Positions 5,683 to 21,841 of a stretch of 64,000 nt of DNA are shown here, piece after piece (position 1 is the first letter of the stretch; every line of letters begins with the position of its first letter). A program made the translations under genes and the position numbers. The notes beneath the pieces are model-generated. The model was not told where the DNA came from, made no database searches, and was given only the letters and a program-made list of their open reading frames with translations. Source of the DNA: Hydrogenophilales bacterium 28-61-23 (GTDB lineage: Bacteria; Pseudomonadota; Gammaproteobacteria; Burkholderiales; Thiobacillaceae); the NCBI GenBank assembly GCA_002281555.1, contig NCGJ01000003.1:1-64000 (forward strand), given 5' to 3'.

Positions 5683-6309
5683 TCAAGCAGCGGCGGCCGC
5701 TTTCGCCCGCAACACCTTGATCTGAAACAGGGTGTTGCGCTCATCTTCCTCCAAAGCGGCGCGAATGTGATGCACCGTCGCGACGTAGCGGGGAATGATG
5801 TTGTACTTCAACGCGTTGACCCGTTTCTGGGTCTTGCGGCTGGCCGCCAGCAAACGCCAAAGGGCGTTTTCCGCCTCGCCCAGACGCGCCAGCGTCACGG
5901 TAAGTTCCCGCAGCCGCAGGCGCGCTTCGTCGAAGCTGACATCGGTCCACATCAGCCCGACCGGCTGCAGCGGCAGCGGTTCGGCGCTGACGCTGGGATA
6001 TTCGACGCCGACGCTGGAACGCGCCACGACCCGGATCGCCACCGCCTGTTTCAGGCCGACACCGGCCTGGCGCAACATCTGGCCGCCCATGCGCATCTGC
6101 ACGATGCCCAGCCAGTGATAGGCCTCGGCCAGTTCCGCGCTGGTCTGCGCGCGCAATTCCCGGTATTGGGCCAGCCGCTCGTAGACCAGCCGGGTCAGCA
6201 GATCGCGCTTCTTCTCCAGCATCTGCCGGCCCTGTTCGAGGAACTTGACCTGGCGGCCGACCTGCAGCAAAGCGCTCTTGGTGGGCGGAACTGAAAGGCG
6301 TTTTTTCAT
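5683..6309 (-). CDS. atpD: V/A-type ATPase subunit D (central stalk)
   Basis: The 208-aa protein begins with the family pattern PPTKSALLQVGRQVKFLEQGRQMLEKKRDLL and ends NIIPRYVATVHHIRAALEEDERNTLFQIKVLRAK. These are the two long helices of the rotating central shaft that connects the A3B3 head to the membrane ring. Length is typical. It is the final ATPase gene of the operon, 121 bases after subunit B, and a heptamer-repeat spacer fills that gap. The symbol follows V-type nomenclature and should not be confused with F-type AtpD (beta). Confidence 0.95.
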   Translation of the reverse strand: MKKRLSVPPTKSALLQVGRQVKFLEQGRQMLEKKRDLLTRLVYERLAQYRELRAQTSAELAEAYHWLGIVQMRMGGQMLRQAGVGLKQAVAIRVVARSSVGVEYPSVSAEPLPLQPVGLMWTDVSFDEARLRLRELTVTLARLGEAENALWRLLAASRKTQKRVNALKYNIIPRYVATVHHIRAALEEDERNTLFQIKVLRAKAAAAA

Positions 6310-6430
6310 GGCCGTACGGCGGTGAAGGGTGAAGGGTGAAGGGTGAAGGGTCCACTATTTACCTTTGAGCGCCGCAGGCGCGGACCCTTTACCCTTCCCC
6401 CTTGAGCGCGTAGCGCGGACCCTTCACCCA
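6310..6430. repeat. Intra-operon spacer with GGTGAAG heptamers and 27-bp direct repeats
   Basis: Four perfect tandem copies of GGTGAAG lie at 6321-6348. Beyond them are two similar blocks built on TTGAGCGC...GCGCGGACCCTT, at about 6363-6392 and 6402-6428. The same heptamer recurs inverted at 9714-9740, in the spacer between subunits E and A. No gene is present. Confidence 0.75.
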
Positions 6431-7816
6431 TCACGCCGTCACCCCCTTGTGATATTTCGCCAACTCGGCCTCGGAGACGCGGATCAGCGCGTCCCGCGGC
6501 AGCATGGACAACAAGTCCCAGGCCAGGTTGAGGGTTTCGTACACGCTGCGGTCTTCGTCCTCGCCCTGGCCGATGAAGCGGCGCTCGAAGGCGTTGGCGA
6601 ATTCCAGGTAGCGGCGGTCGGCGTCGCCCAATTCCTCGGCGCCGATGATCGCCGCCAGTCCGCGCACTTCCAGCGCCTTGGCGTAGCTGGCGAACAACTG
6701 GCTGGCGACGTGCGGGTGATCCTCGCGCGTGAAGTTCTTGCCGACGCCGTCCTTCATCAGGCGCGACAACGACGGCAGCACGGTGACCGGCGGGTAGACG
6801 TTCTGGTTGGCCAGCTCGCGGCCGAGCACGATCTGGCCTTCGGTGATGTAACCGGTCAGATCGGGAATCGGGTGGGTGATGTCGTCGGACGGCATCGACA
6901 ACACTGGGATCATCGTGATCGAACCGCGCCGGTTCTTGATCCGGCCGGCCCGTTCGTAGATTTCCGCCAGATCGGAATACAGGTAGCCGGGATAGCCCTT
7001 GCGCGCCGGCACGTCGCCGCGCAGCACCGCCACTTCGCGCAGCGCCTCGGCGTAGGCGGTCATGTCGGTCATCACCACCAGCACGTGATAGTCGAGATCG
7101 AAAGCCAGGTATTCGGCGGCGGTGAGCGCGGCGCGCGGGGTCAGCAGACGTTCGATGACCGGCTCGTCGGCCAGATTCAGGAACATCGCCACCTTGTTCA
7201 ACACCCCGCTTTCAGCGAAGCTTTCCTGGAAGAAACGGGCATCGGCGTGCGACGCGCCAAACGCGGCAAAAACGATGACGAACTCGGACGATTCCTCGCC
7301 CAGTAGCTTGGCCTGGCGCACGATCTGCGCCGCGACCCGGTTATGCGGCAGGCCGCCGCCGGAGAAGATCGGCAACTTCTGGCCACGGGTCAGCGAGTTC
7401 ATGCCGTCGATGGCGGAAATGCCGGTCTGGATGAATTCGCGCGGATAGGCGCGCGCAGCCGGGTTGAGCGGCTCGCCGTTGACGTCGCGGCGGTCGCCGG
7501 AAATGATCGGCGGCCGCCCGTCGCGCGGCAGGCCCGCGCCGTTGAAGATGCGGCCGAGAATGTCGCGCGACACCGGCAATTTGAACGGCTCGTCGAGGAA
7601 ACGTACCCAGGTGCGCTCCAGATCGAGCTGGTCGGTGCCTTCGAACACTTCCACCAGCACGGCGTCGTCGGCACAACGGATCACCAGACCGGAACGCAAC
7701 CGACCGGCATGGTCGCGCACCTGCACGCGGGAACCGGCCGCCACGCCGGGCACGCCACCCATGACCAGGAGGCCGCCCTGGGCGGAAGTTGCGGTGCGGA
7801 ATTCGATATTTTTCAT
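6431..7816 (-). CDS. atpB: V/A-type ATPase subunit B (regulatory, non-catalytic)
   Basis: The 461-aa protein is homologous to the nucleotide-binding subunits of rotary ATPases. It has GGGLPHNRVA where the catalytic subunit has a Walker A loop, as expected for the non-catalytic B subunit. Other family blocks are visible: AIDGMNSLTRGQKLPIFS, DMTAYAEALREV, and GSITMIPVLSMPSDDITHPIPDLTGYITEGQ. Three copies alternate with subunit A in the cytoplasmic head. It lies between A (26 bases upstream) and D. Full length, no anomalies. Confidence 0.97.
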   Translation of the reverse strand: MKNIEFRTATSAQGGLLVMGGVPGVAAGSRVQVRDHAGRLRSGLVIRCADDAVLVEVFEGTDQLDLERTWVRFLDEPFKLPVSRDILGRIFNGAGLPRDGRPPIISGDRRDVNGEPLNPAARAYPREFIQTGISAIDGMNSLTRGQKLPIFSGGGLPHNRVAAQIVRQAKLLGEESSEFVIVFAAFGASHADARFFQESFAESGVLNKVAMFLNLADEPVIERLLTPRAALTAAEYLAFDLDYHVLVVMTDMTAYAEALREVAVLRGDVPARKGYPGYLYSDLAEIYERAGRIKNRRGSITMIPVLSMPSDDITHPIPDLTGYITEGQIVLGRELANQNVYPPVTVLPSLSRLMKDGVGKNFTREDHPHVASQLFASYAKALEVRGLAAIIGAEELGDADRRYLEFANAFERRFIGQGEDEDRSVYETLNLAWDLLSMLPRDALIRVSEAELAKYHKGVTA

Positions 7817-7842
7817 GGTGTTGCTCGTGTTTTTTGTCTATT

Positions 7843-9612
7843 TCAGGCGGTCTGCTCGTATTCCAGCATCAGCTTGTCGAACTCGCCCGGAATCGCGGCG
7901 ATCTTGGTTTTCAGCGCGGCAATATCATCGGAAGTGTGCTGGCTCTTCCAGCGTCGCGCCTGCGCCAGCACCGGCATCTGGATCAGCCTGCGCGCCGGGG
8001 CGCCCAGCTTCACCAGCTTCATGCCCTGGCGGAATATCTCCAGCATCGCTGCGAGCAGCGCGTACTGTTTTTCCGGCGAGGCGAAACTGTCTATTTCGTC
8101 GGTGGCCGATTGTTGCAGCAGGCCTTCCTTGATCAGGCTGGCGGCTTCCAGGGTCCAACGTTGTTCGCTCGACAGCGCCTCGACGCCGACCAGGTTGACG
8201 ATGCGTTGCAACTCTTCGGAAGCGGACAGCAAGTCGAGCGCTTCGGCGCGCGCGCTTTCCCAATTCGGATCGACGTTTTCCGCCCACCACTTGGCGGCCG
8301 AGCCGACATAGCCGGAAAAACTTTCCAGCCAATCCACCGAGGGATAGTGGCGCGCGTCGGCCAGTTCTTTCGACAGCGCCCAGAAGGTCTGGATGATTTC
8401 CTTGGTGTGGCTGGTGACCGGTTCCGAGAAATCGCCGCCGGGCGGCGAAACCGCGCCGATCAGCGTGACCGAACCATGTGCGCCAGCCAGCGTTTCCACC
8501 CGCCCGGCCCGCTCGTAGAACGCCGCCAGACGGGAACCGAGATAGGCCGGATAGCCCTCCTCCACTGGCATCTGGCCGAGTCGGCCGGCGACTTCGCGCA
8601 ACGCTTCGGCCCAGCGGCTGGTCGAATCGGCCACCATGACCACGTCCAGACCCTGGTCGCGGAAATATTCGGCCAGGGTGATGCCGACGTAGATCGAGGC
8701 TTCGCGCGCCACCACCGGCATGTTGGAGGTGTTGGCGACCAGCAGCGTGCGCTCCATCAACGGCCGGCCGGTATGCGGATCTTTCAGCTCGGGCATGAAT
8801 TCGAGCACGTCGGTGAGTTCGTTGCCGCGCTCGCCGCAGCCGACGTAAATGACGATTTCCGCGTTGCACCAGCGCGCGATCTGCTGCTGCAACATGGTCT
8901 TGCCGGCGCCGAACGGGCCGGGAATCGCCGCCTTGCCGCCCTTCAGCAGCGGATAAAACGTATCCAGGATGCGTTGTCCGGTGATCAACGGGGCGACGGC
9001 ATGGTCGCGTCGCTTGAACGGACGCGGCGTGCGCACCGGCCAGCGGTGGAACAGACGCAGTTTTTCTATGCTGCCATCGGCCAGACGCACCCGGCCTATC
9101 GCCTCTTCGATCGTGTAATCGCCTTCCGGCGCCAGCTCCAGGAGTTCACCGTGCATCAGCGGCGGCGTCAGGATGCGGTGCAGGATGGATTCGGTCTCCC
9201 GCACCGTGCCCAGCACATCGCCGCCGGCCAGCGCGCCGCCGGCATGACGGTTTGCATCCGGCACGAAGCGCCAGCGCTTGTCGCGCGGCAAGGAAGGCAC
9301 CGCCACGCCACGCGCCATACGGTCGCCGCTTTGCTCCCGCACAGCCTGCAAGGGACGCTGCACGCCGTCGAAAATCGCGCCCAGCAATCCGGGGCCCAAC
9401 TCCACCGACAGCGGCCAGCCCAGGCCCTCGGCCACTTCGCCCGGACGCAGCCCGGCGGTGTCCTCATATAGTTGCGCCAGGGCGGTATTGCCATCGCGGC
9501 CGATCACCTCGCCGATCAGCCCCAGCCGTCCGACCCGCACCTGCTCGCCGAGCACCGTTTCCGGCAACTCCAGCTTCACCAGAGGGCCGTTTATTTCGAG
9601 AATTCTGCCCAT
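7843..9612 (-). CDS. atpA: V/A-type ATPase catalytic subunit A
   Basis: The 589-aa protein is the catalytic head subunit that hydrolyses or makes ATP. The Walker A loop GPFGAGKT lies at 232-239. The insertion typical of V/A-type A subunits (the non-homologous region, residues about 100-190) is present, which separates it from F-type beta. Further conserved blocks are YVGCGERGNELTDVL, ADSTSRWAEALREV and the GSVTLIGAVSPPGGDFSEPVT stretch. Start ATG at 9612. It is preceded by a 132-base repeat-containing spacer and followed by subunit B. Confidence 0.98.
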   Translation of the reverse strand: MGRILEINGPLVKLELPETVLGEQVRVGRLGLIGEVIGRDGNTALAQLYEDTAGLRPGEVAEGLGWPLSVELGPGLLGAIFDGVQRPLQAVREQSGDRMARGVAVPSLPRDKRWRFVPDANRHAGGALAGGDVLGTVRETESILHRILTPPLMHGELLELAPEGDYTIEEAIGRVRLADGSIEKLRLFHRWPVRTPRPFKRRDHAVAPLITGQRILDTFYPLLKGGKAAIPGPFGAGKTMLQQQIARWCNAEIVIYVGCGERGNELTDVLEFMPELKDPHTGRPLMERTLLVANTSNMPVVAREASIYVGITLAEYFRDQGLDVVMVADSTSRWAEALREVAGRLGQMPVEEGYPAYLGSRLAAFYERAGRVETLAGAHGSVTLIGAVSPPGGDFSEPVTSHTKEIIQTFWALSKELADARHYPSVDWLESFSGYVGSAAKWWAENVDPNWESARAEALDLLSASEELQRIVNLVGVEALSSEQRWTLEAASLIKEGLLQQSATDEIDSFASPEKQYALLAAMLEIFRQGMKLVKLGAPARRLIQMPVLAQARRWKSQHTSDDIAALKTKIAAIPGEFDKLMLEYEQTA

Positions 9613-9744
9613 CGCATTTCCTTATTGGAAAATGTGAAAAGTGACTTGCCGCTTCGCGGCTTCGGTGAAAGGTGAAGCAGCCCACATTTCACGTTTCACG
9701 AGCGGCGCAGCCGCTTCACCCTTCACCCTTCACCCTTCACTAAA
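9613..9744. repeat. Intra-operon spacer with inverted GGTGAAG heptamers
   Basis: CTTCACC is repeated in tandem almost four times at 9714-9740. This is the inverse complement of the GGTGAAG array at 6321. Upstream, GGTGAAAGGTGAAG at 9663-9676 forms the opposite arm, so the spacer can fold back on itself. It separates subunits E and A; no gene is present. Confidence 0.7.
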
Positions 9745-10395
9745 TCACCCATGCGCCAAGGTGCCCAAATCAGGCGCGCTGGCGAACAAACGTTCCATCG
9801 CCACCCGCGCCAATTCATCGGCTAGGCGGGATTGGCGGCCTTCGAAAGTCTGGTCCAGTTGCGCGCGGTTATCGGCCAGGCGCACGCGGATGCCACCCTC
9901 GCTCGGTTGACTGTGGCTGTTCAATGTCGCCTGGCGGCCGGGTGCGGCGCGCGCAACAATGTCCGGCCACACCGCAGCCAGTCGATGCGCGTCCTCGGGC
10001 CGCACTTCCGCCACCAGATCGCCCGCCGGCAGCGCTTGCGCCGCCGCCTTCAGCCATTGCTCGAGCACGGCGAGATAGGCGGTTTCATGCTTGACCAAGG
10101 CCTGAAACGCTTGCTTGACGCCGGACAAGGTCGCCTCGGTCAGCGCCCAGCGCAAGCGGTCGAGATCCGAAGCCAGACGGGTTTCCGCCGCCTGCGTGTG
10201 CCGGCGCACCATGCGCTCGGCCTCGGCCTTCGCGGCCAGCACCTCGCGTTCCTCGGCCAGTTTCAATTTGTCGGCCGACTCGGCCAGGATGCGCGCGCGC
10301 AGCACTTCGGTGTTCTGGTGTTGCTCGCGCGCAAGCGTTTCGGCCTGGCGCAGCAGCGCCGTTTCCAATTGGGTGACTTGGCTTTCGTTTTCCAT
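9745..10395 (-). CDS. atpE: V/A-type ATPase subunit E (peripheral stalk)
   Basis: The 216-aa protein starts with a long charged helix (ALLRQAETLAREQHQNTEVL on through EAERMVRRHTQAAETRL). It ends with the globular E-type domain containing GGIRVRLADNRAQLDQTFEGR. This is the stator subunit that pairs with the G/H coiled coil and holds the head still. Start chosen at the ATG at 10395, with AGGTGG just upstream; a GTG three codons earlier at 10404 is the alternative. Nine bases separate it from the stop of subunit F. Confidence 0.92.
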   Translation of the reverse strand: MENESQVTQLETALLRQAETLAREQHQNTEVLRARILAESADKLKLAEEREVLAAKAEAERMVRRHTQAAETRLASDLDRLRWALTEATLSGVKQAFQALVKHETAYLAVLEQWLKAAAQALPAGDLVAEVRPEDAHRLAAVWPDIVARAAPGRQATLNSHSQPSEGGIRVRLADNRAQLDQTFEGRQSRLADELARVAMERLFASAPDLGTLAHG

Positions 10396-10404
10396 TTTTT
10401 CCAC

Positions 10405-10737
10405 CTACCTCAATGCTTCCGGGCCCAGCACGGCGCGCACCACATCATCGACGGCGGGCGCGTAATCGTGCGGCGCGGCCAAGGGCGGCAATTCGGTGAC
10501 CACGATGCGGCCGCCTTCGTTGCGCAAACGGTCGAGCCAATGTCCGCCGGCATGGGCGAGATGGGTTTCCAGCAGCACCAGCGCTTCGTCGCCGCTTTTC
10601 ACCAGTTCGCCCAGCACTTCCTCCACCTTGGCCGGATCGGCATCGGGATGGACCTCGGCGCCGATCAGGCTGAAGCCTTCGGCCAGGCCGGCGCTGCCGA
10701 GGACAACCAGGCGAGCGCTGATGGCGGCGGTTTCCAT
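10405..10737 (-). CDS. atpF: V/A-type ATPase subunit F
   Basis: The 110-aa protein has the small alpha/beta fold pattern of V-type subunit F: RLVVLGSAGLAEGFSLIGAEV, a central EALVLLETHLA strand, and GRIVVTELPPL before the C-terminal helix. The subunit binds the central shaft D and can influence coupling. The length matches the family. It is placed between the membrane ring gene K (28 bases upstream) and E (9 bases downstream), as expected in such operons. Confidence 0.9.
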   Translation of the reverse strand: METAAISARLVVLGSAGLAEGFSLIGAEVHPDADPAKVEEVLGELVKSGDEALVLLETHLAHAGGHWLDRLRNEGGRIVVTELPPLAAPHDYAPAVDDVVRAVLGPEALR

Positions 10738-10765
10738 GTCTCGATACTCCGTGTTGGCGATCCGT

Positions 10766-11215
10766 TTACAACTTGCCGAGCAGCAGGATCGACATGACCA
10801 GGCCGTAAATAGCGATACCTTCGGCCAGACCCATGTAAATCAGCGTGCGGCCGAACATTTCAGGCTTTTCGGCGATCACCGCCAGCGAGGCGGCGCCGAC
10901 CGGGCCCAGCGCAATGCCGGCGCCTATGGCCGCCAGTGCGGTGGGCAAGCCGACACCGATCAAGGCCAACCCCTTGCCCATGGAGATTTCCATCAGCCCG
11001 GCGGCGGCAGGTTCCGCCGCGAGCACCTCCTGCACACCCATCATCAGGGTGCCGGCCATGCCCAATCCGAACAGCAGCACATTGGCCAACAAGCCGCCCT
11101 TGAGCCAGGCCGGAGGCGGCAACCGACCCGGTTTCCGGGGTTTCATTTCCAGCCAGACACCGGCGCCTATGGTCGCCGCCACGGACAACCCCATCAATGC
11201 GATCAACCAGTTCAT
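10766..11215 (-). CDS. atpK: V/A-type ATPase proteolipid subunit K (c ring)
   Basis: The 149-aa protein has four hydrophobic helices. The last hairpin carries IGAGIALGPVGAASLAVI, then EKPEMFGRTLIYMGLAEGIAIYGL. The glutamate in GLAEGI is the ion-carrying carboxylate in the ring. Gap-free alignment of this hairpin to sodium-binding F-type c subunits, from memory, puts Leu where those have the ligand Gln, and Gly after the Glu instead of Ser/Thr. That favours protons over sodium, but it is only an inference. The first helix pair (WLIALMGLSVAATIGAGVWL; LLANVLLFGLGMAGTLMMG) has no membrane carboxylate, giving one site per four helices. Confidence 0.93.
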   Translation of the reverse strand: MNWLIALMGLSVAATIGAGVWLEMKPRKPGRLPPPAWLKGGLLANVLLFGLGMAGTLMMGVQEVLAAEPAAAGLMEISMGKGLALIGVGLPTALAAIGAGIALGPVGAASLAVIAEKPEMFGRTLIYMGLAEGIAIYGLVMSILLLGKL

Positions 11216-11277
11216 TTGCTTCTCCTTAACGTTGAATCACTCAAAGCCGTACCCTAAACCGGCAACCAAAAACGTGA

Positions 11278-13185
11278 TCAATTCTTGCTTGCCCGCGTCT
11301 CCAGCCTGAGCGGCGCGAACTCCACACCGTCGCCGCTGAAAAATCGCGAAAAACCTTCGTAATACATCAGACGCAAAGCCTGGATGGCCACGATGCCGCC
11401 CTCCAGCACGATGATGACGACATTGCCCAGGACTATGGTGAACCCGTGGCCGGCGGCTTCCAGGCCATTGGCCAGGGTAAAAATCGCCAAAGCCAGCGCC
11501 ACATGGTTGAGGCTGAACGCGGCCACCCGCATGAAGGACAGGGTGTTGGCAAACAGGTTGATGCCGGTTTCCAGCGTCTCTATCGCCGTCACCAGCGCGC
11601 GCTCACCCCAGCCGGCGCGGGTTTCGAGCCATTTGAAGGCCGCCACCGTGACGATGCCGATCAGCGCCAGCGCGCCGGCCGGTTGCGCCAGATCGGCCGC
11701 GCCGGTCAGGCTGACCACGCCGCCGACCGCGCCAAGATAAAACACCAGCCCGGCGATTCCGGTCGAGTCGAACAGGGCTTCGCCGACTTTGCCGGCGCTG
11801 ATTTTATTTCCGGTATTGACCAGTAGCGTCAGGGTGATGAAACCAACACCGAAAGCCACCGCCAGGGTCAGGACACGAATCGGATCGTGCAGCGGCGACA
11901 GCCAGACCGGCGCCAGAATGTCTTCGTAGCCAAAGATGCTGCCGTAAAACAGGCCGAACAACATCGACGACGCCCCCGCCGCCATGCCGATCCAGGCCAG
12001 TCCGCCGACACGGCGGTACAAGGCGGCGGCCAGAAGCAGAATGACCGCGCCGTGGCCGATATCGCCGAACATGGCGCCAAACAACAGCAGATAGGTGAAA
12101 GCAAATGGCAACGTGGGGTCGAATTCGCCATAACGCGGCACGCCATAACTCTTGACCAAGGGTACGAAGGGTTGCAACCAGCCCGGGTAATGCACCAGCG
12201 AGGGCACCTTGGCCACCTCATCCGGCGCCGGCTCGCGCGCATCCAGCCAGTAACGGCCATGAAAACGGGCCTGCAGCGCCGCGCGCAACGCATTGAGCTG
12301 GCGGCGCGGAATCCAGCCGGTCATCGCGGCCAGGCCGCCCTTGCCGCGCACGCCGACCAGCGCCGCTTCGGCCAGCGGGCGCGCCAGTTCCACGCGCAGA
12401 CGCGCTTCATTCAGGCGCGGGCCGATGATGCCCCGCATCCCATCCATGACCTTGCATTCCGCGCCAGAGAGTTCTTCCAGCCGTTTGCTTTCCTCATCCA
12501 GCCAGCTGCGAGCTGCCTGCGGGTGCGTGCGCAACACTGCCGGGATCGGCAATTCGCGCCAGCCAGCCTGGGACAGCAGGCCGCGCACTTCATCGTTGCG
12601 CGAACGCGGGCCGGCGATGACGGCGAAGACCTGATCGCCGACAAGATCGAATTGCGAGACCAGCGTGCCGGTCATGGACAGCGCGTCGGACACGCGTTTG
12701 AGTCCGCTCGCCGGCAGGCTGCCGATGTTCACCGCCAACAGACTGTCGCCGCGCAACAGTTGCGCCAGATCGACATTCAAGCGCTCGATCTTGCTCAGTG
12801 TTTCTTCCAGCGCGGCCAGATGCTTGCGCTCTTCCTGGATGCGCTCCTCGCCTTCATGGCAGGCCAGGCAGGCGATCCAGATTTCTTTCAACCAGGCATT
12901 GAGTTCCCGCAAATCGGTCAACGATGGCGCGGCGGCATCGGCCGGAATTGACAGATCCTGGACATCGCCGCATTGCGCCAGCAGCTTGGACATCCGGGTT
13001 TCGGCCTCCATCCAGGCTTCGCGATAACGCTCCGCGGGCGCTTCCGGCAACAGTTCCGGCCCTGCTTCCCGCATGCCGGCGGATGGGTTGAACACGCCCA
13101 TGCGCGCCAATTCCAGCGCGGCATCCGGCGCTTCGGAAGCCAGCATGACCAGTTGGATATTGAGCAGCGGTTCGGCGCGGAACAT
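11278..13185 (-). CDS. atpI: V/A-type ATPase membrane subunit I (a subunit)
   Basis: The 635-aa protein has a long soluble, partly coiled N-terminal half (about 1-320). The membrane half begins near YGEFDPTLPFAFTYLLLFGAMFGDIGHG, a signature of the V-type a/I subunit. Several more membrane helices follow, with the conserved LSFMRVAAFSLNHVALA segment and GLEAAGHGF, which form the ion half-channels and contact the ring. GAGG lies 7 bases before the start at 13185. Length is typical for bacterial I subunits. Confidence 0.95.
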   Translation of the reverse strand: MFRAEPLLNIQLVMLASEAPDAALELARMGVFNPSAGMREAGPELLPEAPAERYREAWMEAETRMSKLLAQCGDVQDLSIPADAAAPSLTDLRELNAWLKEIWIACLACHEGEERIQEERKHLAALEETLSKIERLNVDLAQLLRGDSLLAVNIGSLPASGLKRVSDALSMTGTLVSQFDLVGDQVFAVIAGPRSRNDEVRGLLSQAGWRELPIPAVLRTHPQAARSWLDEESKRLEELSGAECKVMDGMRGIIGPRLNEARLRVELARPLAEAALVGVRGKGGLAAMTGWIPRRQLNALRAALQARFHGRYWLDAREPAPDEVAKVPSLVHYPGWLQPFVPLVKSYGVPRYGEFDPTLPFAFTYLLLFGAMFGDIGHGAVILLLAAALYRRVGGLAWIGMAAGASSMLFGLFYGSIFGYEDILAPVWLSPLHDPIRVLTLAVAFGVGFITLTLLVNTGNKISAGKVGEALFDSTGIAGLVFYLGAVGGVVSLTGAADLAQPAGALALIGIVTVAAFKWLETRAGWGERALVTAIETLETGINLFANTLSFMRVAAFSLNHVALALAIFTLANGLEAAGHGFTIVLGNVVIIVLEGGIVAIQALRLMYYEGFSRFFSGDGVEFAPLRLETRASKN

Positions 13186-13197
13186 TACATGGCCTCG

Positions 13198-14238
13198 TCA
13201 CATGACCGTTAGCGGCGCACGTTGCAGCGCGAAGCGGATATCGACGCCAGGCAAGCCTAGGTGACGACCGCGCAACACGGCGCGCACGTAACGCAAATCC
13301 CGCTCACGCAAGATAAGGTAAGCAAACGCGCGGCTGATCGTCGATGCGCCGGAATGCAGGATTTTCAATGCGCGTTCGGCCGCCACGCTTTCCATGCGGG
13401 CGAAAACACCGGGGATATCGCTTACCGATACCAATTGCTCACGCATCGCTTGCGGCAGTTTGGCCAGCACCGTGTCCAGACTGTCCTGCGCGGCAAGTTC
13501 GCGCAGGCGCGCGCCGGTCAGGGTGTAATGGGCGTCCACCAGCAGAAAATAAACCTGGGCTGGCGGCAGGTTGTAGTTGAACCGGTAGCGCAGCAGCCAG
13601 ACCAGATTGATGCGGTCGATCAAATTGGCCATCAGCGTGCGTAAACCCGGGCCTGAGCCGGTTTCCAAAGGCCGCGCGCGCTGGGCGAGGCCCTCGTAAT
13701 AACCGCGATCCAGCGCCGCATCGAGATTGAAGGGATCCCGGCTTTGCTCGAATGCGCGTCTGGCATGGCGCACGATGCCGGCATACGGCCCGGCCTCGAG
13801 TTTGCGCAGCAATTCACCGACATCTTCGGTATGCGCCAGCGCCTGGTTATCGAGTCGGCCGAACGAGCCCATCGGCGTCAACCGCGCCAGCAATGCGGCC
13901 GGACGTTCGCCGCTCATCTTGCCGCGCAACAGGGTTTTGACGTTGCTGACTTCAAATCGCGCGGTCCAGTAAATCAGGAAACTCCGCTCCGCGCCGGTCA
14001 GCGGGCGTATCAGCACCCGGGTTTCATCCAGGGTCTGGGCAATGATGCGCTGTTCCAGCGAGAGTTGATCGTAGCTGCCATCGCGGTTGCCATACCCCGC
14101 CGCCAATTGCGGCAGGCCTCGTTGCGCGAGCAGGCTAGCCATCTCGGCATCGGGCACGCGCAGCAAGGCGTCGAAGTATTCCGCCTGCCAGAGCCTGCCG
14201 GCGTAGAGACTGACACGTGTATTGAGATAGGCGGACAT
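13198..14238 (-). CDS. atpC: V/A-type ATPase subunit C (d-type, ring cap)
   Basis: The 346-aa helical protein matches the V-type C/AC39 family: AYLNTRVSLYAGRLW at the start, EVSNVKTLLRGKMSG in the middle, and DRINLVWLLRYRFNYNL later. The subunit sits on the rotor ring and links it to the central shaft. Start taken at the ATG at 14238, where the family similarity begins; a TTG at 14259 overlaps the stop of subunit G/H and would add seven residues. It is 12 bases upstream of subunit I. Confidence 0.93.
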   Translation of the reverse strand: MSAYLNTRVSLYAGRLWQAEYFDALLRVPDAEMASLLAQRGLPQLAAGYGNRDGSYDQLSLEQRIIAQTLDETRVLIRPLTGAERSFLIYWTARFEVSNVKTLLRGKMSGERPAALLARLTPMGSFGRLDNQALAHTEDVGELLRKLEAGPYAGIVRHARRAFEQSRDPFNLDAALDRGYYEGLAQRARPLETGSGPGLRTLMANLIDRINLVWLLRYRFNYNLPPAQVYFLLVDAHYTLTGARLRELAAQDSLDTVLAKLPQAMREQLVSVSDIPGVFARMESVAAERALKILHSGASTISRAFAYLILRERDLRYVRAVLRGRHLGLPGVDIRFALQRAPLTVM

Positions 14239-14255
14239 GATCCGAGCGGCGGCAA

Positions 14256-14573
14256 TCAAACAGCCGGGTCGAGCAGCAGGGTCAGCGCGGCGTCCACCGC
14301 CTCCTGTTCGTGGCGTGACGCCAGCTCGCGCAGGTTGCGTTGGCGTTCGTCATATTTTCGGGAAAGTTCGGCCACCGCCTGATCGGCGCGACCGTGCGCC
14401 TCTTTCAGAAATGGCGCGCGCAATTCGGCGCGATTGGCTTCAAAGCGTGCTTCGGCTTCATGCACGCCGGCCAGTGCATCGTCGAGCAAGCGTTGGCGCT
14501 CTAGGCTGGCGGCTTCGATGATGGCTTGCGCGCGGGCTTCCGCTTCCAGCAGTCGTTTGAGTTGGTCTTCCAT
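14256..14573 (-). CDS. V/A-type ATPase subunit G/H (peripheral stalk coiled coil)
   Basis: The 105-aa protein is nearly all charged alpha helix (MEDQLKRLLEAEARAQAIIE, then ERQRLLDDALAGVHEAEARF). This is the pattern of the stator subunit G (eukaryotes) or H (archaea), which winds around subunit E. It is the first ATPase gene of the run, only 26 bases after the small cysteine protein of the hydrogenase operon. The family is fast evolving, so the call rests on composition and position as much as on similarity. Confidence 0.82.
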   Translation of the reverse strand: MEDQLKRLLEAEARAQAIIEAASLERQRLLDDALAGVHEAEARFEANRAELRAPFLKEAHGRADQAVAELSRKYDERQRNLRELASRHEQEAVDAALTLLLDPAV

Positions 14574-14599
14574 TTTTCACTTTCAAACTTCTCTTCCAG

Positions 14600-14851
14600 C
14601 TAGTGGGTTGACATAGCCACGGGTAGGGCTTTATCCGGCGTCACGCCGAATTTGCGCCGCCGCGCCCGGCCCCAGGGGCAGCCGCCGAAGGTCAGGGCCA
14701 ACTCGGCTTTCTGCACGGCAACCGCCCAGGCAACTCCTTTACGTGCTCGCGTGCAGATCGGGCAACCGTATTCGCAATACTCGGGGTCGTTCAGATGCAG
14801 GATCGGCATCTTCCAACCGCCCCAACCGTAAACCCTTCCAGTTGCTTTCAT
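14600..14851 (-). CDS. Small cysteine-containing protein of the hydrogenase operon, unknown function
   Basis: The 83-aa protein is not recognised. It contains the motif C26-x3-C30-x2-C33 (EYCEYGCPICTRARKG) and a later GGCPWGR with a fourth cysteine. Four cysteines could hold zinc or an iron-sulfur site; this is an inference. A near-perfect ribosome-binding site, AAGGAGG, lies 6 bases before the ATG, strong evidence that it is translated. It sits between the hydrogenase large subunit (47 bases upstream) and the first V-ATPase gene (26 bases downstream). It does not match the rubredoxin-like HupI/HoxR pattern. The C-terminus is basic (RARRRKFG). Confidence 0.75.
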   Translation of the reverse strand: MKATGRVYGWGGWKMPILHLNDPEYCEYGCPICTRARKGVAWAVAVQKAELALTFGGCPWGRARRRKFGVTPDKALPVAMSTH

Positions 14852-14898
14852 GATGGGCCTCCTTGCCACGCCACCCTCCCCGGGTGAGGAGGAAAGCG

Positions 14899-16686
14899 TT
14901 ACTTCACTTTCACTTGCACCAGTTCTTCGCCATCCGGGTCGGTGACATGCACGGCGCAGGCGATGCAGGGGTCGAACGAGTGGATGGTGCGGAGGATCTC
15001 GATCGGCTGTTTCGGATCGTGCATGACATGGTTGTGCTGCAACGCCGCCTCGTAGGCGCCAGGTTGCCCCAGCGTATCGCGCGGACCGGCGTTCCAGGTG
15101 GAGGGCACAACGGCCTGATAATTGCTGATCTTGCCGTCGTCGATGTTGATCCAGTGGCTCAAGCCGCCGCGCGGCGCTTCCATCAGGCCAACGCCGTGCA
15201 TGTGGCTCGGCCAGGTGGCGGGGTCCCAATACTGGTCGTTGAAGGTGCGCACGTCGCCGGCCTTGATGTTGGCCATGAGGCTGTCGAACATGCCCTGCAT
15301 GTTGTCGGCCAGCAGCTTCGATTCCAGCGTGCGCGCGGCGGTTCGGCCCAGCGTGGAGAACAGCGCGGTGACCGGCACGTCCAGCGTCTTCAGCGTGTAG
15401 TCGACCAGTTCCTTGGTCTGCTTGTGGCCGCCGCATTCGGTATTGGCATACATCATCAGCACCCGGGCGAGCGGACCGACTTCCATCGATTTGCCCTGCC
15501 AGCGCGGCGACTTGAGCCAGGAATACTTCTTGTCGACATCGAGCAACTCATAGGGCGGTTTCGGGCCGGTGTAGTTGAGCTCGGTTTCGCCCTTGAACGG
15601 GTGCAGGCCTTGCGCGTCGCCCTGGCTGTACTTGTACCAGGAGTGGTTGATGAATTCCTGGATCTCGTTGTCCGCGTCCAGGTCGATGGGGTGGATCTTG
15701 GAAATATCGTGGTTGAGGATGACGCCGCGCGGGATCAGGTAGGAATCGGGCTCCCAGAAGCTCTTCGAGGGCAGATCGCCGAACGACAGGAAGTTGCCGC
15801 CGGCATCGCCGATGCCGCCCCAGTCCTTGTAGAAACCGGCGATGGCGAGCGTGTCCGGCACATAGACCTGATCGACGAATTCGCGCATCTGCTTGATGAC
15901 GTTCTGCACGGTCTGCAGGCCGACCATGTTGACTGCGGTACCCGACTGGCCGCCAACTCGCTTCTCGACTGCGGTATGCACCGAAATGGCGGAAGGCACA
16001 CCGCCGACCACAAAGTTGGGGTGTGGGTTCTTGCCGCCGAAAATGGCATGCAGTTTGACCACATCGCGTTGCCAGGCCAGCGCTTCCAGGTAGTGCGCCA
16101 CCGCCATCAGATTGGCCTCCGGCGGCAGTTTGTAGGCGGGGTGGCCCCAATAGGCGTTGGAGAAAATCCCCAACTGGCCTTGTTCGACGAAGGTTTGCAC
16201 CCGCTTCTGCACGTCGGCGAAGTAGCCGGGCGAAGATTTTGGATAGCTGGAAATGCTCTGCGCCAGCGCCGATGTCGCCTTCGGGTCGGCCTTCAGCGCG
16301 GACACCACATCGACCCAGTCGAGCGCGTGCAGGTGGTAGAAGTGCATGACGTGGTCATGCACATACTGCGCGGCGATCATCAGATTGCGGATCAGTTCCG
16401 CGTTTTTCGGAATGGTGTAAGCCGGAATGGCGCGATGCAGCGCGTCTTCCACCGAACGAACCGAGGCCAAGCCATGCACCAGCGTGCAGACGCCACAGAT
16501 ACGCTGGGCGAAGGCCCAGGCGTCGCGCGGGTCGCGCCCTTTCAGGATGATCTCGATACCGCGCACCATGGTGCCGGCGGAGTAGGCGCTGGTGATTTTT
16601 CCGCTGGCATCGGTTTCCGCTTCGATACGCAGATGACCCTCGATACGGGTGATGGGGTCGACAACGACGCGTTGAGCTGTGGTCAT
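14899..16686 (-). CDS. hynL: [NiFe] hydrogenase large subunit (uptake type)
   Basis: The 595-aa protein carries the catalytic Ni-Fe site. The N-terminal ligand motif RICGVC (C64, C67, with H71 three residues on) and the C-terminal DPCIACAVH (C574, C577, H580) are both intact. Fifteen residues follow H580 and should be removed by the HupD-type protease after nickel insertion. The N-terminus (RVVVDPITRIEGHLRIE) is canonical for group 1 uptake enzymes. In this Isp-type layout the large subunit is split from the small subunit by isp1, isp2 and a 148-aa gene. The protein reaches the outer face of the membrane bound to the Tat-exported small subunit. Confidence 0.97.
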   Translation of the reverse strand: MTTAQRVVVDPITRIEGHLRIEAETDASGKITSAYSAGTMVRGIEIILKGRDPRDAWAFAQRICGVCTLVHGLASVRSVEDALHRAIPAYTIPKNAELIRNLMIAAQYVHDHVMHFYHLHALDWVDVVSALKADPKATSALAQSISSYPKSSPGYFADVQKRVQTFVEQGQLGIFSNAYWGHPAYKLPPEANLMAVAHYLEALAWQRDVVKLHAIFGGKNPHPNFVVGGVPSAISVHTAVEKRVGGQSGTAVNMVGLQTVQNVIKQMREFVDQVYVPDTLAIAGFYKDWGGIGDAGGNFLSFGDLPSKSFWEPDSYLIPRGVILNHDISKIHPIDLDADNEIQEFINHSWYKYSQGDAQGLHPFKGETELNYTGPKPPYELLDVDKKYSWLKSPRWQGKSMEVGPLARVLMMYANTECGGHKQTKELVDYTLKTLDVPVTALFSTLGRTAARTLESKLLADNMQGMFDSLMANIKAGDVRTFNDQYWDPATWPSHMHGVGLMEAPRGGLSHWINIDDGKISNYQAVVPSTWNAGPRDTLGQPGAYEAALQHNHVMHDPKQPIEILRTIHSFDPCIACAVHVTDPDGEELVQVKVK

Positions 16687-16698
16687 GGTCGTGAATCC

Positions 16699-17145
16699 TT
16701 AATTATTCAAAAACGCTTCGAGGATGCGGTATTGCTCCCCGGCCTCTCGGTTCTCGGTACCTTCGCCGGTAGCGATGGTCTCGCAGGTGCGCGCCATGCG
16801 CGCTTGCATGGCGGCATCCCAGGCTAGATTGTTGCCGGCTTCGGCGGGCTTGACGCAGGCCACCGCGGCCTTGGCGACGAAATGGCCGGCCTGGGCGCTC
16901 CACTCGGTTTCCTTGCCGCACTGGGTGAAGCTTTCAACTCGCGCGGAGTTGGCTGCTTGCGATAGCACGGACAGTTCCGCGTCGGTGATGTCGGCGCGCG
17001 CCGCCGCATCCAGCGCGGCCTTGATGCGCACATCGTTGCTGAGCGGGAACACCCGTTGCACAAAGCGGGCGGCGACTTGCCGCTGCTGGATTGCGGAAAG
17101 GCCGGTCAAGACCGCCTTGAAATCCTTGTCGTTGCCGATTGCCAT
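16699..17145 (-). CDS. Unrecognised 148-aa protein within the hydrogenase operon
   Basis: No family is recognised. The protein is mainly helical and soluble with no signal peptide: MAIGNDKDFKAVLTGLSAI, RFVQRVFPLSNDVRIKAALD, and a C-terminus ENREAGEQYRILEAFLNN. Cysteines occur singly (QCGKE, VACVK, RTCET), so no cluster motif is evident. It starts 4 bases after the isp2 stop with its own AAAGGAG, and ends 12 bases before the large subunit, so translation is tightly linked. The position suggests a role in assembly or electron transfer of this hydrogenase type, but nothing in the sequence proves it. Confidence 0.72.
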   Translation of the reverse strand: MAIGNDKDFKAVLTGLSAIQQRQVAARFVQRVFPLSNDVRIKAALDAAARADITDAELSVLSQAANSARVESFTQCGKETEWSAQAGHFVAKAAVACVKPAEAGNNLAWDAAMQARMARTCETIATGEGTENREAGEQYRILEAFLNN

Positions 17146-17149
17146 GGTT

Positions 17150-18427
17150 TCAGGCTCCTTTCTCAGCGCTGGGTTCTGGAATGTGTTCGGCGATCATCTC
17201 GGTCAGGCCAACCACCGGAATATTCATCTGGTAATGCTCCAGGCCTTCTTCCAGAACGATGCGGCAGTTGGCGCATGCGGTGACCAGACGATCCGGCTTG
17301 ACCGCATCGAGCTGCGATTTCTTCTTCTTGAACGCCTCGAGACGCAATGCCTCGCCTTCCTCGATCGCGGAAGCGCCGCCGCCACCGCCGCAACACCAGT
17401 TCATGAAGCCGGCTTCGGGCATTTCGACGAAATTCTGCGCAACCTGGTTCATCAGGTCGCGCTGCTGCTGGATGACGCCGCCGCGCCGCGCCAACTGGCA
17501 CGGGTCGTGGAAGGTCAGGCGGTCGGTCTCGAAGCCCTCGGTCTTGAGCAAGCCCTGTTTCTGGAACTCGCCCAGCACCTCGATGATGTGCTTGACCGCG
17601 AAGGTGAACGGCCGGCCGATCAGGTTGGCGCCTTCCCAGCGCAGCGCGGTATAGGCGTGGCCGCATTCCGGGCTGATCACGGTCTTGACCCTGAGTCTTT
17701 CCGCGCCATCGACAATGCGCTTGACCAGCACGCGGGCCAGGTCGGAGTTGCCGATCTGCATGCCAGCGTTGGTCGCCTCGAACGCGGTCGAACACAAGGT
17801 CCAGCTCTTGCCGGCCTGATGCATGATCTTGGCGATGGCACCCAGATACTCGGGGAAATTGATGATTTCCATCGAGGACAGCATGACCATGTACTCCGCG
17901 CCTTCGGCATCGAGCGGAATCGGCAAGCCGTAATCGGCTTCGACGTGCTTCATCTGCGCCTTCACGGCCGGCAATTTGACCCCCATCGGACTGCCGATGG
18001 TGATGGTGCGATTGACCGCGCCTTTGATGCCTTCCGGCGCATGGCCGGCGGCGGACATGCCTTCACGGAACTTGCGCACCATGTAGACGATGTCGTTGCC
18101 GACCGGGCACACCACCGAGCAACGGCCGCACAGCGTGCAGGAGTTGTAGACCAACTCCTGCCACTCGGCCAATTCCGCGTCGGTCACCGGTTTGGATAGC
18201 CCGAACGTTTTGCCGAGACGGCCAAGCAAGGTGTATTCCTGCTCGTAAATGCGGCGCAGCGGCTCCAGCTTGTGGATCGGGGTGTATTTGGGATCGCCGG
18301 TTTCCGTATAGAACAGGCAGGCTTCGGCGCACAGGCCGCAATGCACGCAGCTATTGAAATAGCTGGCGATGGGGGCGTCGATGACTTCCTTGAGTACACG
18401 GACGCCTTTTTCTAATGACGCGCTCAT
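17150..18427 (-). CDS. isp2: Hydrogenase-associated iron-sulfur protein Isp2 (HdrD/DsrK-like)
   Basis: The 425-aa cytoplasmic protein has two ferredoxin-type [4Fe-4S] motifs: C27/C30/C33/C37 (SCVHCGLCAEAC) and C97/C100/C103/C107 (SCTLCGRCSVVC). The C-terminal cysteine-rich domain resembles heterodisulfide reductase subunit D and DsrK, with FHDPCQLARRGG and NWCCGGGGG. Together with Isp1 it is thought to carry electrons between the hydrogenase and the membrane or cytoplasm, as in Allochromatium- and Thiocapsa-type enzymes. It overlaps isp1 by 4 bases. Confidence 0.93.
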   Translation of the reverse strand: MSASLEKGVRVLKEVIDAPIASYFNSCVHCGLCAEACLFYTETGDPKYTPIHKLEPLRRIYEQEYTLLGRLGKTFGLSKPVTDAELAEWQELVYNSCTLCGRCSVVCPVGNDIVYMVRKFREGMSAAGHAPEGIKGAVNRTITIGSPMGVKLPAVKAQMKHVEADYGLPIPLDAEGAEYMVMLSSMEIINFPEYLGAIAKIMHQAGKSWTLCSTAFEATNAGMQIGNSDLARVLVKRIVDGAERLRVKTVISPECGHAYTALRWEGANLIGRPFTFAVKHIIEVLGEFQKQGLLKTEGFETDRLTFHDPCQLARRGGVIQQQRDLMNQVAQNFVEMPEAGFMNWCCGGGGGASAIEEGEALRLEAFKKKKSQLDAVKPDRLVTACANCRIVLEEGLEHYQMNIPVVGLTEMIAEHIPEPSAEKGA

Positions 18428-19083
18428 ACCGCGACTCCTTTATGACCGTTGACCGCACCGTTGTACCAACGCGAACCGAAAGCGGTGAAAGCGTGGAACA
18501 GCTTGGTGAAAGGCAGGAACACCAGCAATAGCTCAACCGTGAGAATGTGTATTGCCAGCATCGTGGTGTAGGGCAACAGCAGATGCTGCACCGCCATCCA
18601 GCCGGTCAGAACAGGCAGGAAGGTCAGCGTCCAGGTAAACCAGTCGCCGAAGGTGCTGAGGTAGCGCTTCACCGGCTTGTTGATGCGATCGACCAGAACC
18701 ACCACCATGGCCGCCAGGGTCACCACGGCGACCAGATCGACGAACTGCGACGGCAATCCCGGCCAGGACAGGCCGGTAAGGTTCTTGATCAGCAGGATGT
18801 GCGGCGCGAACAGGAACACCACGATGGCCAGTCCGATGTGGAAGGTGTAACCGCCGATGTAGCTGACCGGCGACTTCCCGAGCATGCCCTCAGGCGGCAG
18901 CGAGCGCCGAAAAATTGTGTGCCAACCGGAGGCACCGGAAACGCTGCGTGGGGCGGAAAGATCCTTCTTGCGGCCGAGTGAATAGATCTCGAACAGACGC
19001 CAGAACACGCCCAGCAGGAAGATGCCGACGGCGATATCCAGGCCCGGCCCACGAACCCAAGTCAGAAATTGCATGTCATTCAT
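18424..19083 (-). CDS. isp1: Hydrogenase-associated membrane cytochrome b-like protein Isp1
   Basis: The 219-aa membrane protein has about five hydrophobic helices and resembles NarI/DsrM-type b cytochromes. Histidines suited to heme binding lie in helices (YTFHIGLAIV, FAPHILL, LAIHILTV, KLFHAF). It should receive electrons from the periplasmic hydrogenase and pass them to quinone or to Isp2. Start placed at 19083, where GGAG stands 8 bases upstream. The ATG at 19089, overlapping the small-subunit stop, is the alternative. It is followed directly by isp2 with a 4-base overlap. Confidence 0.92.
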   Translation of the reverse strand: MNDMQFLTWVRGPGLDIAVGIFLLGVFWRLFEIYSLGRKKDLSAPRSVSGASGWHTIFRRSLPPEGMLGKSPVSYIGGYTFHIGLAIVVFLFAPHILLIKNLTGLSWPGLPSQFVDLVAVVTLAAMVVVLVDRINKPVKRYLSTFGDWFTWTLTFLPVLTGWMAVQHLLLPYTTMLAIHILTVELLLVFLPFTKLFHAFTAFGSRWYNGAVNGHKGVAV

Positions 19084-19085
19084 GA

Positions 19086-20177
19086 TCATTTCTCCAGATC
19101 GGCCAAAGTGGTCGTCTCATGAGCCGACTTGGCGGCGCTCTTTTTGCCCCGGTTGGCGAAGCTGATCGCCACCCCCGCTGCCGCGCCCGCCACCGCGGCG
19201 GCGGATGCGATCTTTAGCGGGTCGGCCGGCATCGACAGGGCCTTGTAGAAGCCGCCGGCATCCCAGAAGTCGGGCTCGGAACAGCCCAGGCAGCCGTGCC
19301 CGGACTCCACCGGCCAGGAGGTGCCACCGTTCCATTTCACCGTGGCACAGGCGTTGTAGGTGACCGGGCCCTTGCAGCCCAACTCGAACAGACACCAGCC
19401 GTTGCGCGCGCCTTCGTCGTCGAAAGTCTTGGCGAACTTGCCCTGGTCGTAGAACGGGCGGCGATAGCAACGGTCGTGGATGGTTTCTCCGTAGAAGGCT
19501 TTCGGACGGCCTTTGGCATCCATTTCCGGCAGGCTGCCGAAGGTCAGGAAGTGGGCCAGCACACCGGTCATCACGACAGGGATCGGCGGACAACCGGGAA
19601 TGTTGATGATTGGTTTGTCCTTGATGATGTCGGATACCGAGACCGCGCCGGTGGGATTGGGATTGGCTTTCGGGATGCCGCCGTAAGCCGCGCAGGAGCC
19701 CATCGCAACAATCGCGGCGGCGCCCTTGGCAACTTCCTTCAAGGTTTCGAGATTCGATTTGCCAGCGATGCAGGAATAGGCGCCATCCAGCCCGAGCGGG
19801 ATCGAACCATCGACGATCAGCAGATATTTGCCCTCGTTGGCCTTCATCGCCGCATGCAGTGCTTCTTCGGCCTGGTGGCCGGCGGCGGCCATCAGCGTCT
19901 CCTGATAATCGAGCGAGATCGCATCGAAAATAAGCCCTTCCAGTGTGGGCGAATGCGAGCGGGTGATGGATTCGGTACAACCGGTGCATTCCTGGAACGG
20001 CAACCAGATCACCGAAGGCCGCCGGGTTGCCGCCGGGGCGGCGGCCATCGCTTCCGCCATCGCCCGGCCTGCGGCAGGCGGCAGCGCCATCATCGATGCC
20101 AGTGTGGCGCAATATTTCATGAATGCGCGGCGGGTAATGCCCTGCCGCGCGAGCGTGTCGATCAGTGAACCTTGCAT
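19086..20177 (-). CDS. hynS: [NiFe] hydrogenase small subunit, Tat-exported
   Basis: The 363-aa protein opens with a twin-arginine signal (ITRRAFMKYC, RR at 16-17), so the folded heterodimer is exported by Tat. The electron-relay cluster motif ECTGC (C64, C67) and the C-terminal cluster cysteines (DRCYRRPFYDQGKF, ELGCKGP, GCLGCSEPDFWD) are intact. A hydrophobic stretch near residues 325-343 (IASAAAVAGAAAGVAISF) can anchor it in the membrane. CAGGAGG lies 9 bases before the ATG. It is followed by isp1, the arrangement that marks the group 1e (Isp-type) uptake hydrogenases. Confidence 0.97.
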   Translation of the reverse strand: MQGSLIDTLARQGITRRAFMKYCATLASMMALPPAAGRAMAEAMAAAPAATRRPSVIWLPFQECTGCTESITRSHSPTLEGLIFDAISLDYQETLMAAAGHQAEEALHAAMKANEGKYLLIVDGSIPLGLDGAYSCIAGKSNLETLKEVAKGAAAIVAMGSCAAYGGIPKANPNPTGAVSVSDIIKDKPIINIPGCPPIPVVMTGVLAHFLTFGSLPEMDAKGRPKAFYGETIHDRCYRRPFYDQGKFAKTFDDEGARNGWCLFELGCKGPVTYNACATVKWNGGTSWPVESGHGCLGCSEPDFWDAGGFYKALSMPADPLKIASAAAVAGAAAGVAISFANRGKKSAAKSAHETTTLADLEK

Positions 20178-20244
20178 GATGCTTTGCCTCCTGAGCCGGA
20201 AAACAATCGCTTAAATCACAACCGCCCTACACAACGCCTTTGCT

Positions 20245-20676
20245 TCAGCTTAGATCAGAAATCAGCAAATCAAGATGCTCTAATCCTGTTTGCACGTCAT
20301 CCGGATGCGCTTTCAGCAACTCCGGGAAGTAGGTCACTTCGATGAATTCGGAAACAACCGCCCCCGTTTCATTCCGGTGCGTGACCCACCAGACACCGGG
20401 ACAGACCGTCTCGCTCAGCGTCGACTCGCCTTCCGCCTCCAGCGTCGCGGCAACCTGGCCTTGGCCCAGCGTTTCGCGCAGCCAGTCGAGATCGGCCGGC
20501 GTCAACGGCAGCGCGCGCAAATCGATCGCGGACGACTCGCCCGAAGCGAGCAAACGGCGCGCAAGTTCGGCAATTTCGCGCAGCAGCACCGGCGCATTGC
20601 CGGACAAACCGGCTTCGTCGCCACTTTGTTTGGCGGCGGCATTGATGACGACGATGGGGATGGCATCAAGCGGCAT
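20245..20676 (-). CDS. HupH/HyaF-like hydrogenase expression/formation protein
   Basis: The 143-aa protein matches the C-terminal domain of HupH/HyaF. It has AIDLRALPLTPADLDWLRETLGQGQV, then the acid stretch to CPGVWWVTHRNETG and FIEVTYFPELLKAH. HupH-type proteins act in maturation of the small subunit of uptake hydrogenases. It appears to be a single-domain version, shorter than classic HupH (about 280 aa). Start at 20676, overlapping the hupD stop by 11 bases; an upstream extension to 20739 would lie inside hupD. A 67-base gap follows before hynS. Confidence 0.82.
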   Translation of the reverse strand: MPLDAIPIVVINAAAKQSGDEAGLSGNAPVLLREIAELARRLLASGESSAIDLRALPLTPADLDWLRETLGQGQVAATLEAEGESTLSETVCPGVWWVTHRNETGAVVSEFIEVTYFPELLKAHPDDVQTGLEHLDLLISDLS

Positions 20677-21151
20677 GGTTCCAGTCCTTGAGCAATTCGA
20701 GGATGGCTCTGCATACCGGCGCAATCGCCGCCGCGACAATGGGAGTCGGCTGTTCGCCCCAATCGACGATAGCGGGCTGTATGGCGAACATCGCGCGTTG
20801 TTGCGGCCAGTGGCCAGCCAGAATGGCGATGGCGCGCAAATCGGTGAGGCCGACTTCGTGAACGGTGGATTTGCGATTGCCCATCAGAAAAGCATCCATT
20901 TCCTCGCCCTGAAACAGTTTCCATGCGCCGGGCGCGGCTTGGATATTGGCGGCATCGACCACGATCAGCGCATCGGCTTCCTCGATCGGGCCCGCCAGCG
21001 TGAACGACAACGTACCGCCATCGAGCAGGGTGATATTGGAAAAATCGGCGGGGAAATCGGCAAGGCTGGATTCAAGCGCTTGCAAAACATGGATACCGAC
21101 GCCTTCGTCGGTCAGCAGGGTGTTGCCTATGCCCAGAATCAGGGTTCGCAT
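20666..21151 (-). CDS. hupD: Hydrogenase maturation endopeptidase HupD/HyaD
   Basis: The 161-aa protease clips the C-terminal extension of the large subunit after nickel insertion. The family N-terminus RTLILGIGNTLLTDEGVG is present. The three nickel-sensing residues, by analogy with HybD, fall at E16, D66 (VVDAANI) and H98 (VHEVGL). It is the first gene of the long minus-strand run, and its 3' end overlaps the HupH-like gene. Its likely target, a 15-residue tail after H580 of the large subunit, is encoded in the same operon. Confidence 0.95.
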   Translation of the reverse strand: MRTLILGIGNTLLTDEGVGIHVLQALESSLADFPADFSNITLLDGGTLSFTLAGPIEEADALIVVDAANIQAAPGAWKLFQGEEMDAFLMGNRKSTVHEVGLTDLRAIAILAGHWPQQRAMFAIQPAIVDWGEQPTPIVAAAIAPVCRAILELLKDWNHAA

Positions 21152-21304: not shown

Positions 21305-21535
21305 ATGTGCCTCGCCATTCCCATGTGCATCACCGCGGTCGATGGTCTCAACGCGCGTTGCGAGGCGCGCGGCATCTATCGCGACATATCGCTGTTCATG
21401 CTGCAGGACGACTTGCCTGTAATCGGGGATTTCGTGATGGTCAGCGTGGGCCAGGCGGTGCGCAAGGTCAGCCCGGAAGATGCCCGCCTGTCTTGGGAAC
21501 TGTACGATCTGATCCTGGCGGAAACACCGAACTAA
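21305..21535 (+). CDS. hypC: HypC/HupF-family hydrogenase maturation chaperone
   Basis: The 76-aa protein begins MCLAIPMCITAVDGLNARCE. The essential Cys2 and the MCLAIP motif of HypC are present, with the OB-like core GDFVMVSVGQAVRKVS. HypC carries the Fe(CN)2CO precursor together with HypD and binds the immature large subunit. It is transcribed away from hupD, with 153 bases between the starts. Other hyp genes (A, B, D, E, F) are absent from this window and must lie elsewhere. A copy near the structural genes could be the HupF-like specialised paralogue. Confidence 0.92.
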   Translation: MCLAIPMCITAVDGLNARCEARGIYRDISLFMLQDDLPVIGDFVMVSVGQAVRKVSPEDARLSWELYDLILAETPN

Positions 21536-21553: not shown

Positions 21554-21841
21554 TTAATTCGCGCGGGACTCACCCTGCTCAGTTTCGGTATCGAATTCGG
21601 CGCGCACCGAATCGAGCGCATCCTTCAACGTTTCTTCGCTCAGTGCATTCAGGTTTTCCGCCAACATTTCGGCGGCATCGATGGTGTCCTGATCATCCGG
21701 CAAGTTGTCGGCGTCCAGATTTGCCACCAGCACGGCGGCGGCGCCTGTCACCTGTAACAACTTCTGGCGTTCGCCCATCAGTAATTCGACTTCTTCGCGC
21801 AGAAGACGGATTTCCTGGTCATTCAAAGCATGCACGGTCAT
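21554..21841 (-). CDS. Unrecognised small acidic protein
   Basis: The 95-aa protein is not assigned to a family. It starts MTVHALNDQEIRLLREEVELL, predicted helical. An alanine-rich middle (VTGAAAVLVANLDADNLP) and a very acidic C-terminal half (DTIDAAEMLAENLNALSEET) follow. No signal peptide, membrane segment or cysteine is present. A GGAG lies upstream of the ATG. It is convergent with hypC and divergent from the HD-GYP gene, with only 29 bases between the two starts, so the promoters must overlap or one gene lacks its own. Confidence 0.65.
   Translation of the reverse strand: MTVHALNDQEIRLLREEVELLMGERQKLLQVTGAAAVLVANLDADNLPDDQDTIDAAEMLAENLNALSEETLKDALDSVRAEFDTETEQGESRAN

Follow-up and report, generated by a model that had tools for sequence, protein, structure and literature searches.

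Between the gene for the large subunit of an Isp-type [NiFe] hydrogenase and the genes of a V-type ATPase, Hydrogenophilales bacterium 28-61-23 carries a gene for a protein of 83 amino acids with four cysteines (here P83), which raises the question of what this protein is and whether it belongs to either complex. A sequence-only reading of the 64,000-nt stretch analysed here (the window) had proposed an assembly factor, or a small electron-transfer or zinc protein, specific to this system.

Much of that reading was borne out at the level of the gene itself. The open reading frame is complete, lies downstream of HynL and upstream of V-ATPase G, and follows a near-perfect ribosome-binding site at tight spacing; the strand, which had not been stated, is minus, and reads AAGGAGG-cccatc-ATG at the start of the gene. 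The translation, MKATGRVYGWGGWKMPILHLNDPEYCEYGCPICTRARKGVAWAVAVQKAELALTFGGCPWGRARRRKFGVTPDKALPVAMSTH, contains the motifs reported earlier, namely C26-x3-C30-x2-C33 followed by GGC58PWG. Homologues of the junction type likewise have AGGAGG or GGAGG ahead of their start. P83 begins 47 nt past the stop codon of hynL (14899-14901), and the three genes share one strand. In order of transcription, the run reads HyaD, HupH, HynS, Isp1 (TmcC/HmcE-like), Isp2 (DsrK/TmcB-like), a 148-aa unknown, HynL, P83 and V-ATPase G-C-I-K-F-E-A-B-D, with the smaller V-ATPase subunits named from position and synteny. Nothing resembling a terminator or promoter was found between hynL and P83, and the stable hairpin located there has no T tract and is not terminator-like, which agrees with co-transcription; the hairpin is perhaps a processing or stability element.

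Features at the hydrogenase/V-ATPase junction (positions in the window)
Feature	Position	Strand	Evidence
V-ATPase G-like subunit	14256..14573	-	PF03179, E 4e-5, under the family cut-off; syntenic in relatives
P83, 83-aa four-cysteine protein	14600..14851 (stop codon included)	-	Open reading frame and translation, homologues, dN/dS
P83 ribosome-binding site AAGGAGG	14858..14864	-	Sequence; 6 nt ahead of ATG
Hairpin between HynL stop and P83 ribosome-binding site	14868..14899	-	-24.7 kcal/mol (z -1.75); equalled by 11 of 200 shuffled sequences
HynL, [NiFe] hydrogenase large subunit	14899..16686	-	PF00374, 764 bits

The surroundings of the gene have features of their own. The Isp-type hydrogenase adjoins a complete V-type ATPase in the same direction (5683-21151), an order conserved across the taxonomic family; no reason for this adjacency was found in the papers on Isp clusters that were consulted. 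The 148-aa open reading frame between Isp2 and HynL (16699-17145, minus strand) has no Pfam or NCBIfam match and occurs in many, not all, relatives (in L034, L040 and L104; not found in L033, L105 and L108). A conserved 95-aa open reading frame (21554-21841, minus strand) has no Pfam match, is kept in L033, L040, L104 and others, and adjoins a HypC gene (21305-21535, plus strand).

P83 is a real gene under constraint, since the core of the protein shows NG86 dN/dS values of 0.035-0.10 among pairs with measurable dS, indicating purifying selection. The source genome holds one strong copy, and strong matches were obtained in 13 of the 117 genomes of its taxonomic family (the source and 12 of the 116 others). 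A scan of ~85,000 species genomes yielded 42 loci and ~40 homologues, carried by Betaproteobacteria (Thiobacillaceae-like), Desulfobacterota-type MAGs, Planctomycetota including the anammox Scalindua, and Acidobacteriota. Profile searches of samples from the window's order, the Planctomycetota and the Desulfobacterota returned few members, and we therefore regard the family as rare. In 38 aligned sequences, all four cysteines (C26, C30, C33 and C58) are invariant, as are A36, R37, G39, E50, G56, G57, W60, G61, R62, A63, R64, K67 and P72; because the scan was based on a pair of conserved peptides and so favoured members keeping them, the invariance around GGC was selected for in part, whereas C26, C30 and C33 fall outside both peptides. 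The invariant basic segment reads W-G-R-A-R-x-x-K-[YF]-G-V. In a tree that rests on few columns, the junction copies form one clade (support 100/99). Three further copies from Betaproteobacteria fall elsewhere, together with Syntrophaceae and Acidobacteriota (94/82, slightly short of the usual mark). Two species depart at the start of the gene: in L033 (9960-10010), and likewise in L035, it reads ATG ACA AAA AAG TAG, and the conserved frame resumes in -1 past the A AAA AAG run. A frameshift, slippage or an alternative start codon may account for this.

We looked both for a match to a known family and for homologues lacking the cysteines, and found neither. Pfam and NCBIfam searches with the window protein and the 38 members gave nothing above noise, and a sequence-profile search of the PDB gave chance-level matches only. 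Structure prediction of P83 alone had been suggested as a check: AF2 models of the window protein (pLDDT 72, pTM 0.56) and of a planctomycete homologue (pLDDT 77, pTM 0.54) both have four helices at moderate confidence, but Foldseek and VIA-align found no matching fold in the PDB. The parts of the literature on Isp clusters that we drew on do not mention such a gene, and the family appears to be undescribed in the libraries searched. Several familiar classes can be set aside. A radical SAM enzyme is rejected on the size of P83 (only 83 aa) and on the lack of any radical-SAM match above noise in Pfam or NCBIfam; a rubredoxin or zinc ribbon needs two CxxC knuckles, and every one of the 38 sequences has C-[PW]-W-G as its second knuckle. 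Small cysteine-rich metal proteins without an assigned function are a common kind, and the invariance of all four candidate ligand cysteines in the 38 sequences is what is expected of a metal-binding cysteine protein in general.

Such a site could hold a [4Fe-4S] cluster, with a radical-SAM-like C-x3-C-x2-C and C58 as ligands, and P83 could then sense redox state or oxygen, as WhiB-type regulators do. WhiB-like [4Fe-4S] regulators are proteins of ~80 aa with four cysteines, a helical structure and a basic segment after a Gly/Trp-rich turn. P83 resembles them in each of these respects but differs in the order and spacing of its cysteines, and it has no sequence match to them; a WhiB-like protein in the strict sense is rejected, as scans against Pfam, taken as far as E 1, returned no WhiB profile. 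The C-x3-C-P-[IV]-C spacing, the predicted helices and the many carriers in sulfate-reducing, syntrophic or anammox lineages are nonetheless consistent with an iron-sulfur sensor. Against this, none of the 38 members gave a match to WhiB, ferredoxin or radical-SAM families that exceeded noise, and a distant relative of P83 has two CPxC knuckles, which suggest rather a mononuclear site for Zn or Fe. We consider a sensor of this type possible but rather unlikely.

That relative came from weak matches in Desulfobacterota, in open reading frames of ~60-90 aa (alignment A3; e.g., L095:7952-8164). Its pattern is C-x2/3-C-P-x-C ... C-P-x-C-[KR]-[AS]-[YH]-x-x-[VL]-[YH]-G, with all five cysteines kept in nearly all members; C-x2/3-C-P-x-C ... 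C-P-x-C is a usual metal-knuckle pattern. The two families share their length class, a C-x2/3-C-P-x-C-x2-AR start, a central E and a C-P-x-x-[KR]-A-x-x-x-x-[YH]-G end. They differ at the second knuckle, which is CPxC in the relative, whereas the last cysteine is replaced by glycine in P83 (CPWG or CWWG). The P83 segment GGC-PW-G-RARxRKYG aligns with xxC-PF-C-KAYERVYG of the relative, so that the fifth cysteine is absent from P83. Profile-profile alignment of the two families with hhalign gave a probability of 96.7% and an E-value of 4.2e-10 (one comparison). The P83 profile (A2) finds the relative at E 1.3e-5 to 5.8e-4, the A3 profile, searched the other way, picks up P83 members (E 1.9e-5 and 2.1e-4), and a single BLASTP link joins the families at 1.3e-6. 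Judged by this significant profile similarity in both directions, P83 and the five-cysteine family form one superfamily.

The relative is mostly a Desulfobacterota family, present in ~30 of 247 sampled genomes of that group and in none of 299 sampled from the window's phylum. It matches no named family in Pfam or NCBIfam, has no fixed neighbours and was not found on plasmids or in phage records. Its sub-threshold matches are to small treble-clef and zinc-ribbon families (best E 0.007-0.08); families of the zf_Tbcl (PF13451) type have CPxC knuckles, as the relative does. P83, in contrast, has no such match, only one intact knuckle and a predicted helical structure. The tail of the relative, CPFCKAYERVYGRKAH, is also less basic than that of P83, and nucleic-acid binding, if any, would therefore be particular to P83.

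The position of P83 might suggest instead an optional assembly, maturation or electron-transfer factor of the Isp-type (group 1e) hydrogenase, useful for example under oxygen or nickel stress. In its favour, P83 precedes V-ATPase G in 10 genomes of the window's clade; HynL is visible upstream in nine of these, and the contig of the tenth starts just ahead of P83. Furthermore, the slot between hynL and V-ATPase G can carry hydrogenase accessories, as it is filled in three relatives without P83 there by a HupE/UreJ nickel permease (L114:9825-10500, identified by Pfam; L118:8425-9080 and L120:11640-12330, by likeness of translation), an unrelated membrane protein of ~190 aa.

The wider distribution argues otherwise. 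The sequence-only reading had suggested asking whether homologues always sit next to Isp-type hydrogenases; they do not, since beside most of the 30-odd homologues from outside the window's clade there is nothing related to this hydrogenase or this V-ATPase. No shared neighbour emerged across 32 loci, and Pfam searches with 30 of the neighbours gave unrelated families (glutamine amidotransferase, Nudix, FtsJ methyltransferase, thiolase, MarC, SIR2, Thi4 and others). Within the taxonomic family, Isp1 occurs in 81 of the 117 genomes compared to 13 for P83, and 69 of the 81 lack P83. The HynL-V-ATPase junction is intact without P83 in at least 14 of the related genomes fetched. Two of these junctions hold a decayed 3' remnant of the gene: that in L102 has a local score of 34.5, where 1000 shuffles reached 15.5 at most, and the less secure one in L106 scores 20.5, with 16.0 as the highest shuffle score. 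These remnants, which stand beside an intact hydrogenase, indicate that P83 can be lost while both complexes are retained. One genome (G016) carries P83 (L043) on a different contig from an intact junction that lacks it (L111), and another (G035; 540 contigs, 99% completeness, 6% contamination) has P83 with neither Isp1 nor V-ATPase A detected.

P83 is thus dispensable at the junction and is a facultative tenant beside the hydrogenase. Its losses weaken the case for even an optional hydrogenase helper, which we regard as unlikely. An accessory of Isp-type hydrogenases defined by co-occurrence is rejected, given the homologues elsewhere, the many Isp1 clusters without P83 and G035; so is an accessory subunit of the V-ATPase, as V-ATPase A occurs in 69 of the 117 genomes and loci L104-L111 have a V-ATPase without P83. 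Of the earlier proposal, a metal protein remains plausible on the strength of the four conserved cysteines, and the specificity to this system falls.

A looser functional link is left room by the enrichment of [NiFe] hydrogenases in P83-positive Planctomycetota, which also counts in favour of a hydrogenase factor. PF00374 scored over its cut-off in 15 of 17 P83-positive genomes compared to 78 of 224 in the phylum sample (Fisher p 1.8e-5, from raw counts). The species are not independent, P83 carriers are often large-genomed and possibly anaerobic as a group, and L065 (labelled Nealsonbacteria, with a genome of 9.1 Mb) was counted as a planctomycete. The enrichment may reflect larger genomes or anaerobic life rather than function. 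Six of the 31 P83 genomes outside the clade, from incomplete MAGs, have no PF00374 match, which tells against a hydrogenase factor; in the Desulfobacterota-type set, several P83 genomes, again partial MAGs, are without one. P83 may still have some loose connection with hydrogen or anaerobic metabolism.

That P83 is a passenger gene, spread horizontally and without a role for its host at the junction, is unlikely: its patchy distribution, the split of its betaproteobacterial copies into two or more groups in the tree and its lack of fixed neighbours would fit, but it is under strong purifying selection and no homologue was found on plasmids or in viral contigs.

We tentatively favour a small helical metal protein, binding Zn or an iron-sulfur cluster, that would act in trans as a regulator or adaptor and ride in the hydrogenase/ATPase run in one clade. 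Members of the family would be small, soluble and mostly helical, with the four invariant cysteines (C-x3-C-x2-C and the GGC ~24 residues on) forming a single metal site, for which Zn(Cys)4 is the most probable form and an Fe-S cluster the alternative. The site may fix a helical hairpin and expose the basic segment, in which R62, R64 and K67 are invariant across the 38 sequences, for contact with nucleic acid or an acidic protein partner. P83 would then be no obligatory part of the hydrogenase or the V-ATPase; for a stand-alone protein acting in trans, differing contexts between loci are expected, as observed. The gene would have become fixed between the hynL and V-ATPase genes in one betaproteobacterial clade, where co-transcription is probable. 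A broader conjecture, to which we give little credence, is that P83 and its relative belong to an undescribed superfamily whose members, built around a minimal metal site, regulate hydrogen or anaerobic energy metabolism in several phyla, with P83 recruited in that one clade to coordinate the group 1e hydrogenase with the V-type ATPase.

P83 defines a new, well-constrained family of small proteins with diagnostic invariant residues, unnamed in the libraries searched. It also corrects a guess made from association, as a gene within a tidy hydrogenase run is only an optional occupant there. Should the enrichment in Planctomycetota prove causal, P83 and its homologues would offer a handle on the regulation of energy metabolism in anaerobic or hydrogen-using bacteria.
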